A DNA stretch of 64,000 bases from Heliophilum fasciatum (GTDB lineage: Bacteria > Bacillota > Desulfitobacteriia > Heliobacteriales > Heliobacteriaceae), in the NCBI RefSeq assembly GCF_004341395.1, contig NZ_SLXT01000002.1, positions 1 to 64,000 on the forward strand, read 5' to 3'. The position numbers and the translations under genes are program-made. Shown one piece after another: positions 51,255 through 55,733 of this stretch (position 1 is the stretch's first letter; each line of letters starts with the position of its first letter). The notes under the pieces are model-generated. The model saw only the letters and a list, made by a program, of their open reading frames with translations, was not told the origin of the DNA and searched no databases.

Positions 51255-52166
51255 ATGCTATCCATGAAAAAAGGAATGATTGCCCTCGGCCTGATTGGCA
51301 CTGTATTTACCGGTGGGGTCATTGCCTATGCGGCTACTGGAACAACCGATAACAACGCCCCGCAACGACCTGCTTTTGGCTCCTGTTTTGGCGTTAACAA
51401 AGTCAACTGCGGTCCTGGTATGCAGGGAAAAGGCCAACCGATAACCGAACTGGCGACGATTCTCAACATCGATGCGACTGCACTGCAAACGGAATTGCAT
51501 AGCGGTAAAACCTTAGCGGAAATCGCTCAAGCCCAAGGCATCACCAAAGAAGACCTGATCGCCAAAATGGTGGCAAATGTGCAAACACGGCTGGATCAAG
51601 CTGTGACCGACGGTAAAATTACCGCCGAGCAAGCTGCTACCATGAAAGCAAGAATGACCGAGCGCATCACGGCGTCTGTCGACAACAAGTGGGAAGGCAA
51701 GCTCGGCCCGCGCGGTGATAACTTTGGCAATAAACGTGGCGGTGGATTCCTTGGATTCGGTGGACCGGCCTATATGGAGCAAATCGCTCCGATCGTCAAC
51801 TTGACCGTTGATGAATTACGAGCCGAGTTACAAGCTGGCAAATCCCTTGTCCAGATCGCCCAAGCCAAAGGCATCAGCGCTGATACCTTAAAAGCGCAAG
51901 TTCTCGAAGTGGCCAAGAAAACCATCGCCACGCAAGTGGAACAAGGCAAGCTGACCCAAGAAAAAGCGGATCTCATGCTCAGCAACCTCCCCAACCACAT
52001 CGATACGTTCTTGAATCATTGCGCTCAAGGCAAAGGACTCGGTAATGGGTCCGGTAAAGGACCCGGCAACGGGTCCGGTAATGGGCTCGGTAATGGATCC
52101 GGCAGAGGTTACGGCAATGGCTTCAAAGGCCAGGGCCAAGCCCGAGCCCAAGCCCCTGCTCTGTAG
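51255..52166 (+). CDS. Secreted protein with a duplicated domain and Gly-rich tail
   Basis: This is a 303-residue exported protein. GAGGTGGACACTT precedes the ATG. Signal peptide to about residue 26 (VIAYAAT). Two homologous units follow: residues about 60-135 (ITELATILNIDATALQTELH..GKTLAEIAQAQG) and about 175-250 (IVNLTVDELRAELQ..GKSLVQIAQAKG), both ending in a helical segment with K[ILT]T.E[QK]A. A tail of GNGSGKGPGNGSG-type repeats closes the protein. Family not recognised; the helical units resemble the DUF2680-like repeats of small envelope proteins. It follows the kinase by 210 bp and has phased regulator repeats upstream. Confidence 0.7.
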   Translation: MLSMKKGMIALGLIGTVFTGGVIAYAATGTTDNNAPQRPAFGSCFGVNKVNCGPGMQGKGQPITELATILNIDATALQTELHSGKTLAEIAQAQGITKEDLIAKMVANVQTRLDQAVTDGKITAEQAATMKARMTERITASVDNKWEGKLGPRGDNFGNKRGGGFLGFGGPAYMEQIAPIVNLTVDELRAELQAGKSLVQIAQAKGISADTLKAQVLEVAKKTIATQVEQGKLTQEKADLMLSNLPNHIDTFLNHCAQGKGLGNGSGKGPGNGSGNGLGNGSGRGYGNGFKGQGQARAQAPAL

Positions 52167-52301: not shown

Positions 52302-52330
52302 TTCTTGACAACTTCTTGATATTTTCTCAA
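52302..52330. promoter_or_regulatory. Three 11-bp phased TTCTTGA repeats upstream of 52418
   Basis: TTCTTGA at 52302-52308, TTCTTGA at 52313-52319 and TTCTCAA at 52324-52330 are spaced exactly 11 bp apart. This is the pattern of OmpR-family regulator sites. It is 88 bp before the start codon at 52418, a normal position for an activator. Confidence 0.55.
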
Positions 52331-52417
52331 TTCGTTTTGGTTGTTTTTGGTTTATCCTTAAAAACGACCTCCCTGTTGCAGGGATATTTCAGGACATAAT
52401 GAAAGGAGCCTTTCCCC

Positions 52418-52846
52418 ATGAACCTTCGTGTATTGCTTTCCACCTTTTCGCTTTTCCTGCTCAGCCCCGTCGCCGCTTGGGCCGATGGCCCGCTCAAAGA
52501 CCCCATCGCTCAACAAGTCGATGGTAGCGGCAAGATCATTGTACCCTTGCTGGCCCTTACGCTGTTATCGGCCATCGTCGTGCGTTTCAGCAAAAACAAG
52601 ATCATTCGCAAACTGCATCAAGGCATTGGTCTGATCGCCGGTCTCGGTGTGTTCGGCCATGCTGTCTATGCGCTCAGCCAAATGGGCTTTGAAAAACCAG
52701 GCGTCAACATCACCGGCATGGTCGCGGCCATCGCCGTCGCCATCGCTCTTTTCTCCGGATTCCGCAAAATGTCACCGGCGTTTCACCGCATTGCTACAGT
52801 CGTTCTCATTGCCGGATTTGTTGGCCACAAAGCTCTGATTGCTTAA
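52418..52846 (+). CDS. Four-helix membrane protein with two H-x13-H pairs (predicted di-heme b-type cytochrome)
   Basis: This is a 142-residue membrane protein. A signal peptide (cleavage near AAWADG) is followed by four helices: about 38-57, 64-88, 97-114 and 119-141. Helix 2 has His67 and His81 and helix 4 has His123 and His137, each pair separated by exactly 13 residues and preceded or followed by glycines, as in the heme ligands of cytochrome b helices B and D. I infer two stacked hemes. There is no match to a named family that I can recall, and no flavin or iron-sulfur domain. GAAAGGAG precedes the ATG. The next gene encodes a transporter, and a two-component pair follows. Confidence 0.72.
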   Translation: MNLRVLLSTFSLFLLSPVAAWADGPLKDPIAQQVDGSGKIIVPLLALTLLSAIVVRFSKNKIIRKLHQGIGLIAGLGVFGHAVYALSQMGFEKPGVNITGMVAAIAVAIALFSGFRKMSPAFHRIATVVLIAGFVGHKALIA

Positions 52847-52877
52847 GACCATCCATCAACGCATCGGGGGATTGGTT

Positions 52878-53861
52878 ATGGGGAAAACTGTTTTTTTCTG
52901 GCCCTCGAAAAACCCTGTGCTCAGCATTCCCTTGGCCTTAGCACTTGGGTTTCTCATTGGGTTACAGGCGGACACGACATTTCTGAGTAGTTCCATCCTC
53001 ATTTTCACCTTTTTGATGATCTACCCCACCATGATCGGTGTAAAATTAAGAGAAGCCTTTGATTTGAGTCACGCCAAAGTAGTCGGCATCTCACTGCTGA
53101 TCAACTTTTTGCTTATTCCGCTGCTCGCATGGGGGTTAGGCAAGGTTTTTCTCTCTAACGATCCCACGATGATGGCCGGCTTAGCCATTGCCGGCCTGCT
53201 GCCGACGAGTGGAATGACCATATCATGGACGATGATGTTCAAAGGCAACGTACCGGCCGCCGTCAAAATGACCGCCCTCAGCTTAATTGTCGGCTCACTG
53301 CTGGCACCTTTTTACCTGTTGCTTATGGTCGGTAAGTATGTACCTGTCGATATCATGAAAACCTTTACGACGATTGCCATCATTGTCTTCTTGCCCATGA
53401 TCCTCGGCCATTTCACTTTCCAGCAGCTCTTGCGCCGCTACGGCCAAGAACATTTTCAAAAAGTGCTTAAGCCTTACATGCCGGCCTTCAGCTTCTGGGC
53501 CATGTTAGCGGTGATCTTTTCTTCCATCTCCATGAAAGCCAAAACGGTCATTGCCCAGCCCCACTTGATCGGTGGGATCCTGGTCGCCTTGGTGATTTTC
53601 TACCTGGCCAACTTCACCGTAAGCACGGTTATGGCCCGCCTCTTCTTCGCCAAGCCCGATGGCATCGCTTTAATTTATGGCACAGTCATGCGTAACCTTT
53701 CCATCGCCTTAGGTTTGGCCATCACCGCCTTTGGCCCCCAAGCCGGGCTGGTCGTAACTCTAGCCTTTATCTTGCAAGTGCAAGCGGCGGCATGGTACGG
53801 AAAGCTGGCCGAACAGTATCACTTTTTCGGTAAGCCGCAGGAAGTGACCGCCAAGCAATAA
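52878..53861 (+). CDS. BASS / ACR3-like membrane transporter
   Basis: This is a 327-residue polytopic protein with about nine to ten membrane segments, resembling the bile acid:Na+ symporter superfamily (SIPLALALGFLIGL, GLLPTSGMTISWTMMFKGN, YGTVMRNLSIALGLAI). The arrangement is also that of ACR3 arsenite permeases, but no cysteine is present, so the ACR3 metalloid site is absent. Start ATG 52878 follows GGGGGATTGGTT; a TTG at 52839 overlapping the previous stop is less likely. It is co-transcribed with the predicted di-heme protein. The substrate is unknown. Confidence 0.75.
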   Translation: MGKTVFFWPSKNPVLSIPLALALGFLIGLQADTTFLSSSILIFTFLMIYPTMIGVKLREAFDLSHAKVVGISLLINFLLIPLLAWGLGKVFLSNDPTMMAGLAIAGLLPTSGMTISWTMMFKGNVPAAVKMTALSLIVGSLLAPFYLLLMVGKYVPVDIMKTFTTIAIIVFLPMILGHFTFQQLLRRYGQEHFQKVLKPYMPAFSFWAMLAVIFSSISMKAKTVIAQPHLIGGILVALVIFYLANFTVSTVMARLFFAKPDGIALIYGTVMRNLSIALGLAITAFGPQAGLVVTLAFILQVQAAAWYGKLAEQYHFFGKPQEVTAKQ

Positions 53862-53940: not shown

Positions 53941-54624
53941 TTGTCCAAGATACTAATCGTCGAAGATGAAATCAAACTACGCGAGAGCATCGGGCAGTTT
54001 CTCCGCAGTGAAGGTTTGGCAGTGATCGAGGCTGCCGACGGCCTGACAGCATTGAAGAAGGTCCGGGAAGAAAAACCGGACCTTCTTCTTTTAGATATCA
54101 TGCTCCCGGAGCTTACTGGCATCCAAATCTGCAAGATTGTCCGTCAGGAATGGTCTACGCCGATCATCATGCTCACCGCTTTAGGCTCGGAAGATCATGT
54201 ACTTGACGGCCTTGAGCAAGGTGCCGACGATTATATCGTCAAGCCCTTTCGCATGCGCGAACTGGTCGCCCGCATTCGCGCGGTCCTCCGCCGCCATCAT
54301 GCTTTACCGGCCACGGGGAACGTGCTTGCTTATGGCGAGTTAAACCTCGATCTCGATGCTGTTCGCTTAGAAAAAAGCGGTCGTGAAATCCCGTTAACGC
54401 CTACAGAATTCAAATTGCTCGCCATGATGGCCCGGCAGCCGGGACGCGCCTTTACCAGGCTCCAGCTGCTGGAAGGTGCTATTGGTGAAACTTTTGAAAA
54501 CTACGAGCGCACCGTTGATACGCATATTTTCAACTTGCGCAAAAAAATAGAAGCCCATACGGGAAAACCACAGTACTTACAGACGGTTTTCGGCATCGGC
54601 TACCGTTTTGGAGAAAAGTCATGA
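53941..54624 (+). CDS. OmpR-family response regulator
   Basis: This is a 227-residue regulator; the TTG start follows AGGAGGCGCACAAA. Receiver domain with VEDEIK, Asp in LLLLDIMLPELTG and KPFRMREL; winged-helix effector domain (PLTPTEFKLLAMMARQPG, YERTVDTHIFNLRKKIE). Its stop overlaps the start of its kinase (ATGA). It is the best candidate for binding the phased TTCTTGA repeats upstream of 52418, since the two genes lie in one transcription direction. Confidence 0.93.
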   Translation: MSKILIVEDEIKLRESIGQFLRSEGLAVIEAADGLTALKKVREEKPDLLLLDIMLPELTGIQICKIVRQEWSTPIIMLTALGSEDHVLDGLEQGADDYIVKPFRMRELVARIRAVLRRHHALPATGNVLAYGELNLDLDAVRLEKSGREIPLTPTEFKLLAMMARQPGRAFTRLQLLEGAIGETFENYERTVDTHIFNLRKKIEAHTGKPQYLQTVFGIGYRFGEKS

Positions 54625-55733
54625 TCTTACGACGTATTTTCATGTCTTTTTTTCTGTTTATCTTGCTTACCGCCAGCTTGAATATTTTCATTGGCCACTT
54701 TTCCACTCAGCATTTATTACACTACTTCACCTTGAACTTCCAAAATGAGGTTTCTCAAGATGTGACCCGTAATTTTTTCCTACGCTCCATCACCCGGATG
54801 AACATGCTGTCGGCCATCCTTTCATGCGTACTGGCACTTGCGTTCGCCTATTTCGTTTCGCGATTTTTTTCGGCCAAAATCGAAACGCTGGCCCGGGCAG
54901 CTCATCTGATCGCCCAAGGTCAACTGGAACACCGGGTACCGGTAAGCCCCAACGAAGTCCTGGGCAAACTATCGGCCGATTTCAATACCATGGCCGACCA
55001 TTTGCAAAAAGGGCAACAGCTTCGCCGCCAGTTGCAAGCCGATGTGGTCCATGAACTGCGGACGCCGCTGGCTGTCAGCCAGGGCATTCTTGATTCGCTG
55101 GAAAGCAAGGTCATCCCCTGGGATGAGCGATCCCTGTCCTCTCTCCAAGAAGAGATCGGCCGCATGAACCGACTCGTTACGGACTTGCACGATTTAAGCA
55201 AAGCCGAAACGCGCCAGCTTTCCATCCAAAAAGAACTGATCTACGTCGGTGATCTGTTGGAACGGGTACAGGAATCCTTTCAAGAAACGGTCCGCTTGGC
55301 GGGGGTACATTTTCAGGTTGGCCTCCCCCCTGCCGAAAGCGGCGCTTTGCTTTATATCGATCCCGATCGTACCATCCAGATTCTTTTGAACCTCCTGCAT
55401 AATGCGCTACGCTACACTCCATCTGGCGGGATGATTCAGATCAACCTTTGTCTTCAAATCGCCAACAACAGCCCTGGAATCAACATCATGGTCACTGATA
55501 CAGGAACAGGTATTGCCCCGGAACATTTGCCGTTTATCTTTGATCGCTTTTATCGAGGCGATCAAAGCCGCAGTCGCCAGACCGGCGGTTCCGGCCTGGG
55601 GTTAGCCATTGCCAAAGAGTATGTAGAGCTTCAAGGCGGTCAGATTATGGCGGCAAGCACGTTAGGCGCAGGAACAACCATTCGTCTTTGGCTTCCCGTT
55701 GAATCCGAATTAGCCACGGTCGAATTAAAGTAG
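54621..55733 (+). CDS. Sensor histidine kinase
   Basis: This is a 370-residue membrane kinase, coupled to the preceding regulator by a four-base overlap. A first membrane segment (about 5-25) and a second (about 60-82) leave only a 35-residue extracytoplasmic loop, so it probably senses through its membrane part. HAMP, then HisKA with DVVHELRTPLAVSQG and HATPase (LLHNALRYTPSGG, DTGTGIAPEHLPFIFDRFYRGD, GGSGLGLAIA) follow. A strong terminator comes directly after. Confidence 0.92.
   Translation: MILRRIFMSFFLFILLTASLNIFIGHFSTQHLLHYFTLNFQNEVSQDVTRNFFLRSITRMNMLSAILSCVLALAFAYFVSRFFSAKIETLARAAHLIAQGQLEHRVPVSPNEVLGKLSADFNTMADHLQKGQQLRRQLQADVVHELRTPLAVSQGILDSLESKVIPWDERSLSSLQEEIGRMNRLVTDLHDLSKAETRQLSIQKELIYVGDLLERVQESFQETVRLAGVHFQVGLPPAESGALLYIDPDRTIQILLNLLHNALRYTPSGGMIQINLCLQIANNSPGINIMVTDTGTGIAPEHLPFIFDRFYRGDQSRSRQTGGSGLGLAIAKEYVELQGGQIMAASTLGAGTTIRLWLPVESELATVELK

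Follow-up and report, generated by a model that had tools for sequence, protein, structure and literature searches.

The window analysed here, a 64-kb stretch of Heliophilum fasciatum DNA, contains a gene for a protein of only 142 residues with two pairs of evenly spaced histidines, followed by a transporter gene and a two-component pair (Table 1). What kind of protein is this, and does it work together with its neighbours? Judging from sequence comparison, the gene product is most likely a membrane cytochrome of very small size, which would pass electrons across the membrane via two predicted hemes, and it is most likely a distant, stripped-down relative of the ferric reductases and NADPH oxidases. 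We put at about 0.83 the probability that it is a diheme four-helix transmembrane cytochrome resembling the ferric reductase domain (FRD), with heme binding as a prediction.

Table 1. Features of the cytochrome locus, with positions in the window.
Feature	Position	Strand	Basis
Three 11-bp-phased repeats TTCTTGACAAC / TTCTTGATATT / TTCTCAATTCG	52302..52334	+	TTCTTGA-like; pattern match
Mini ferric-reductase-domain-like membrane cytochrome (predicted)	52418..52846	+	142 aa; ORF, orthologues, distant homology to stand-alone FRD proteins, AF2
Signal peptide or signal anchor (predicted)	52418..52483	+	Hydrophobic N-terminus by hydropathy
His67, helix 2, putative cytoplasmic-side heme ligand	52616..52618	+	Invariance in 20 relatives; positive-inside rule
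His81, helix 2, putative outer heme ligand	52658..52660	+	Invariance in 20 relatives; positive-inside rule
His123, helix 4, putative cytoplasmic-side heme ligand	52784..52786	+	Invariance in 20 relatives; positive-inside rule
His137, helix 4, putative outer heme ligand	52826..52828	+	Invariance in 20 relatives; positive-inside rule
SBF/BASS-family transporter	52878..53861 (ATG 52878; alternative TTG 52839)	+	PF01758
OmpR/PhoB-type response regulator	53941..54624	+	Pfam Response_reg, Trans_reg_C; conserved downstream in H. chlorum, H. mobile
Histidine kinase	54621..55733	+	Pfam HisKA, HATPase_c, HAMP

The protein contains exactly four histidines and no cysteine. The histidines of each pair are 14 positions apart, i.e. 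separated by 13 residues (H-x13-H, twice), an arrangement that arose in 0.17% of trials when four histidines were placed randomly in 142 residues. In the AlphaFold2 model the chain forms four helices of 21–29 residues each (approximately residues 29–57, 61–89, 94–115 and 120–140), with the histidines on helices 2 and 4. Both the reading frame and the model agree with the initial annotation, which had described a 142-residue four-helix protein with two histidine pairs 13 residues apart. If the hydrophobic N-terminus is a signal peptide, cleavage after AWA (residue 22) is possible.

Close relatives of the protein are present in five of the nine heliobacterial genomes, including those of H. chlorum and H. 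mobile, and are absent from all non-heliobacterial genomes in the set of 41 and from the plasmid and viral collections. Conservation of the four histidines in homologues, the check put forward in the initial annotation, was borne out: all four are invariant in the five heliobacterial orthologues, in spite of identities of 68% down to 49%. No significant family was found for the protein in Pfam or NCBIfam, and a sequence search of the PDB gave no match. The protein had no match to the Ferric_reduct profile (PF01794; cut-off 28 bits) up to E 5–10, while the family consensus scored E 0.47 and 11 bits and one orthologue E 4.4. As the curated cut-off is missed, the cytochrome is not filed as a member of PF01794 and is regarded as a distant relative only. 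A Pfam match to Chromate_transp (E 7.5e-4, under the cut-off, in one of five members) and one to E1-E2 ATPase in two family members were taken as composition effects, and the first-pass matches of the orthologue profile in the phylum and class (UMP kinase/EF-Ts regions, SpoIIIAD-like, LysE-like) looked, where inspected, like partial matches by chance.

The relationship to ferric reductases becomes apparent through other small proteins. A class-wide search with PF01794 returned many small stand-alone frames of 125–200 aa. H. fasciatum itself encodes a second mini FRD-like protein (P0003 on contig C19; 195 aa, PF01794 E 2.7e-5). Relatives of P0003 occur in H. chlorum, H. mobile and a second family of the Bacillota. 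Four helices with a double H-x12/13-H are common to these proteins and to similar ones of 120–190 aa elsewhere in the class and phylum. For a homology test free of circularity, HMMs were built from small FRD-like proteins only, with the family of the 142-aa cytochrome left out, and that family was then scored with them alongside 717 background frames and 1000 shuffled copies. The HMM of the seven-member D group, at least four of whose proteins exceed the PF01794 cut-off on their own, matched the core of the 142-aa cytochrome at E 7.8e-6 as the top non-member, compared with 0.05 for the best of the 1000 shuffles. This test replaced hhalign, whose results on small alignments of 4–5 sequences (P 0.004–0.024) were too weak for a decision. 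When 20 of the proteins were aligned, the only invariant columns were the four histidines and two glycines, with a third glycine nearly invariant; the invariance of the histidines across groups is not fully independent, since some relatives were collected via the Ferric_reduct profile, which rewards histidines. A profile of the 20 sequences has matches in 25 of the 83 genomes of the class. A further subgroup (L127–L131), mostly from genus g6, comprises small four-helix proteins with the same double-histidine pattern, in which the chain ends right after the last histidine. For the one-stop frames in a further small-protein subgroup, reading of five loci showed the stops to be normal ones at the C-terminus.

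With orthologues only, AlphaFold2 reached a pLDDT of 58; with a 17-sequence family alignment, to which distant relatives had been added, it reached a pLDDT of 91.3 and a pTM of 0.81. Foldseek retrieved no solved structure at E 0.001 or better with either the weak or the good model. Voltage sensors and PsbQ appear in the Foldseek lists side by side with heme proteins such as heme A synthase 6a2j (E 2, TM-score 0.75 by query), and the lists were therefore not counted as evidence. The orientation in the membrane was read from the loop charges summed over the 20 proteins, which amount to 72 positive and 8 negative residues in the loop between helices 1 and 2, 63 and 5 between helices 3 and 4, and 16 and 32 between helices 2 and 3. 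Given the strong positive charge of loops 1-2 and 3-4 but not of loop 2-3, helices 2 and 4 are predicted to run from the inside to the outside, which by the positive-inside rule would place the first histidine of each pair on the cytoplasmic side. In NOX2, His101 and His209 are the inner ligands and His115 and His222 the outer ones (PMC3591440).

The initial annotation had likened the histidine spacing to that in cytochrome b of bc complexes, and in this respect the comparison stands: cytochrome b of the bc1 and b6f complexes likewise has two helices that each carry a histidine pair with a 13-residue gap. Its orientation in bc complexes is opposite to that of the NOX and FRD proteins, and the orientation predicted here fits the latter. 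A minimal homologue of bc/b6f cytochrome b, i.e. a quinol-oxidising core, would likewise have four helices, with H-x13-H on the second and the fourth, but the charge pattern indicates the reverse membrane orientation, no cytochrome b Pfam model is matched up to E 5–10 and the sequences do not match, and there is no Rieske gene beside the cytochrome gene, all of which makes such an origin extremely improbable. The histidines might instead serve a non-heme metal or have some other role in a four-helix protein, so that the heme reading would be wrong, and this would be compatible with heme being a prediction and with the unspecific Foldseek result. However, two histidines 14 positions apart on the same helix are separated by approximately 21 Angstrom, a distance that a single metal site could not span but that suits two stacked hemes, and the sequence is homologous to FRD proteins; we thus consider a non-heme role very improbable.

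Under the preferred reading as an FRD-like cytochrome, the protein would be a stand-alone b-type cytochrome that corresponds to the heme-carrying core of the FRD (TM2–TM5), in which a secretion signal replaces the first FRD helix and the dehydrogenase is absent. Helices 2 and 4 would clamp two stacked hemes, the inner one between His67 and His123 and the outer one between His81 and His137. Electrons might then be passed from menaquinol or a cytoplasmic-side donor via the two hemes to an acceptor outside the membrane. Against this reading, no redox-protein neighbour of the cytochrome was found within the window. The bis-histidine diheme transmembrane conduit put forward in the initial annotation is upheld, by inference from histidine invariance, FRD homology, orientation and the confident model; the link to transport that was part of the same proposal is not.

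We could not agree that such a protein has no described counterpart, since short FRD-only proteins of bacteria have been described, most of the short forms having two or three histidines (PMC3591440). Three features of the FRD superfamily are found in or predicted for the protein, for which heme b binding would be a further one: four histidines as two pairs in two helices, with 12–13 residues between them (five orthologues, 20 relatives); a first histidine predicted on the cytoplasmic side by the charge count over 20 proteins; and homology to accepted members (the seven-protein HMM, E 7.8e-6). Like the short FRD forms (bFRE/bFRD, YedZ/MsrQ, PF01794), it comprises the transmembrane heme core only and has no dehydrogenase; the arrangement of four histidines in two helices with gaps of 12–13 residues and the predicted inner/outer order are also the same as in bFRE/bFRD and YedZ/MsrQ, and the homology runs through intermediate small proteins. 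It differs in having four helices and an N-terminal signal-like segment instead of the six helices of these forms and of the MsrQ-like FRD proteins, and in keeping all four histidines, where two or three are found in most of the short forms described (PMC3591440). MsrQ-like PF01794 proteins of flavinylation clusters have six helices and two hemes, and some of them are encoded beside the iron transporter VIT1 (PMC8238504). DUF4405 proteins and the ferrosome protein FezC have been purified with heme b bound (PMC10979944); these proteins (PF14358 and kin) are likewise small membrane proteins with conserved bis-histidine sites, but DUF4405 models have six helices and FezC acts as a dimer. The PF14358 profile did not match the 142-aa cytochrome, and in the class-wide search it listed other loci of the H. 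fasciatum genome (G000). Also close are the stand-alone FRD-like proteins of 120–200 aa (groups B, C and D) found in other Bacillota and in Desulfitobacteriia-like relatives. These share the size class, the four helices, the double H-x12/13-H and the charge pattern, but their identity is 17–27% and their neighbours are different (molybdoenzyme-like operons, ApbE, a multiheme cytochrome). The kind of protein is thus already known; what is new is a distant, lineage-specific member with four helices, four histidines and a signal sequence. The relatives of the FRD thereby gain a well-conserved, very small four-histidine form from the phototrophic heliobacteria, and together with the other 120–200 aa proteins this form delineates a widely distributed set of stripped-down, putative diheme cytochromes, partly overlooked by standard profiles. 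Such proteins would be handy minimal models for transmembrane electron transfer, and they suggest that these anaerobes carry out extracytoplasmic redox steps that are still uncharted.

In favour of the reading as an FRD-like cytochrome, several of the small relatives are encoded in redox loci. In G228, from another Bacillota family, a relative of P0003 is found with a kinase, a regulator, a PF01794 protein and ApbE (L114:4227-8261), which suggests a flavinylation-linked redox module. In H. fasciatum, P0003 belongs to a single gene run on C19 (L116:3681-8287) together with a regulator, a kinase, a 189-aa b561-like protein and a cytochrome with nine CxxCH motifs, possibly an outward electron-transfer chain in a heliobacterium. 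The small relative in H. chlorum lies beside a 4Fe-4S protein, and the operons that contain those of G017 and G019 also encode a 4Fe-4S protein and a molybdoenzyme-like catalytic protein.

The gene downstream of the cytochrome encodes a member of the Pfam SBF family (PF01758; 1.3e-27, 97.2 bits, cut-off 24.3). Its closest NCBIfam model, ACR3 (TIGR00832), gave 76.4 bits, far below the cut-off of 282.8. ACR3 arsenite carriers use cysteine, and cysteine is absent from the translation of the transporter. Pfam matches and the translation confirmed the earlier description of a cysteine-free BASS-like transporter and a two-component pair encoded alongside the cytochrome. Orthologues of the transporter are present in eight of the nine heliobacteria (identity 71–81%); the two genes are adjacent in H. 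fasciatum, H. chlorum and H. mobile only. In two genomes (G007 and G008) the cytochrome gene is found away from the transporter, with a DUF2867 gene and a gene for an aminotransferase-like protein as neighbours, and of the four heliobacteria that lack the cytochrome, three have the orthologous transporter.

The phased repeats upstream of the cytochrome gene match their pattern with 0 mismatches, where 0.09 matches are expected by chance in the window, and are near-identical in H. chlorum and H. mobile, which confirms the phased site of the initial annotation. The repeats are likely a binding site of an OmpR-type response regulator, presumably the neighbouring one, and the adjacent two-component system would probably set the transcription of the cytochrome and the SBF transporter through them. 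The kinase has 370 aa, compared with 478 aa in H. chlorum and H. mobile, and a periplasmic sensor part of approximately 108 residues is missing.

These neighbours raise the question of whether the cytochrome is dedicated to one of them; both possibilities overlap with the reading as an FRD-like cytochrome. The cytochrome could form one functional unit with the adjacent SBF/BASS transporter, acting on the redox state of the substrate or driving or gating the carrier, as the shared direction, the 31-bp gap, the common upstream site and the gene order kept in three genomes would suggest. There are precedents for a cytochrome beside a metal transporter in FezC with FezB (PMC10979944) and in an MsrQ-like protein with VIT1 (PMC8238504). 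The separation of the genes in two of the five genomes and the three heliobacteria with only the transporter argue against this partnership, as does the lack, in this SBF carrier, of the cysteine used by ACR3. Moreover, no transport of redox metals is known for the SBF family. Functional coupling is possible, co-occurrence does not support it, and we regard a dedicated partnership as unlikely. That a four-helix diheme conduit of approximately 120 residues and the SBF/BASS carrier make up one unit, with electron flow coupled to solute transport under two-component control, is very unlikely; if true, it would be a cytochrome-coupled secondary transporter, a kind not described for the SBF/BASS family. 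Alternatively, the cytochrome could assist the two-component system as a redox or heme sensor, its state informing the kinase, and not act as an electron carrier. Regulator/kinase pairs do occur beside several relatives (in the window, on C19 of H. fasciatum, in G228 and in G017/G019), and the kinase in the window has lost its periplasmic sensor domain. However, adjacency to a regulator is common for regulated genes, the relatives in G007, G008, G371, G237 and G446 have no adjacent pair in the stretches examined, and nothing points to an interaction, which makes the accessory role quite unlikely.

In three heliobacteria with no adjoining cytochrome, a gene for a NapH-like 4Fe-4S membrane protein lies approximately 1 kb upstream of the SBF orthologue (L037:2258-3106, L038:2001-2849, L039:2233-3249). 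H. chlorum and H. mobile carry, on the opposite strand between the transporter and the regulator, a DsrE-family gene that is missing in the window (L001:7103-7495, L002:9562-9936), and both kinase orthologues (L001:8434-9870, L002:10919-12355) keep the sensor domain that the window's kinase lacks, with a histidine-rich stretch EPHAHGPLWSPIDSNHNH. Just upstream in the window, the gene at 51255-52166 encodes a protein that is secreted and has a glycine-rich tail as well as two DUF2680-like repeats, and its promoter region contains CTTGA/CCTGA half-sites approximately 11 bp apart that resemble the repeats at 52302.
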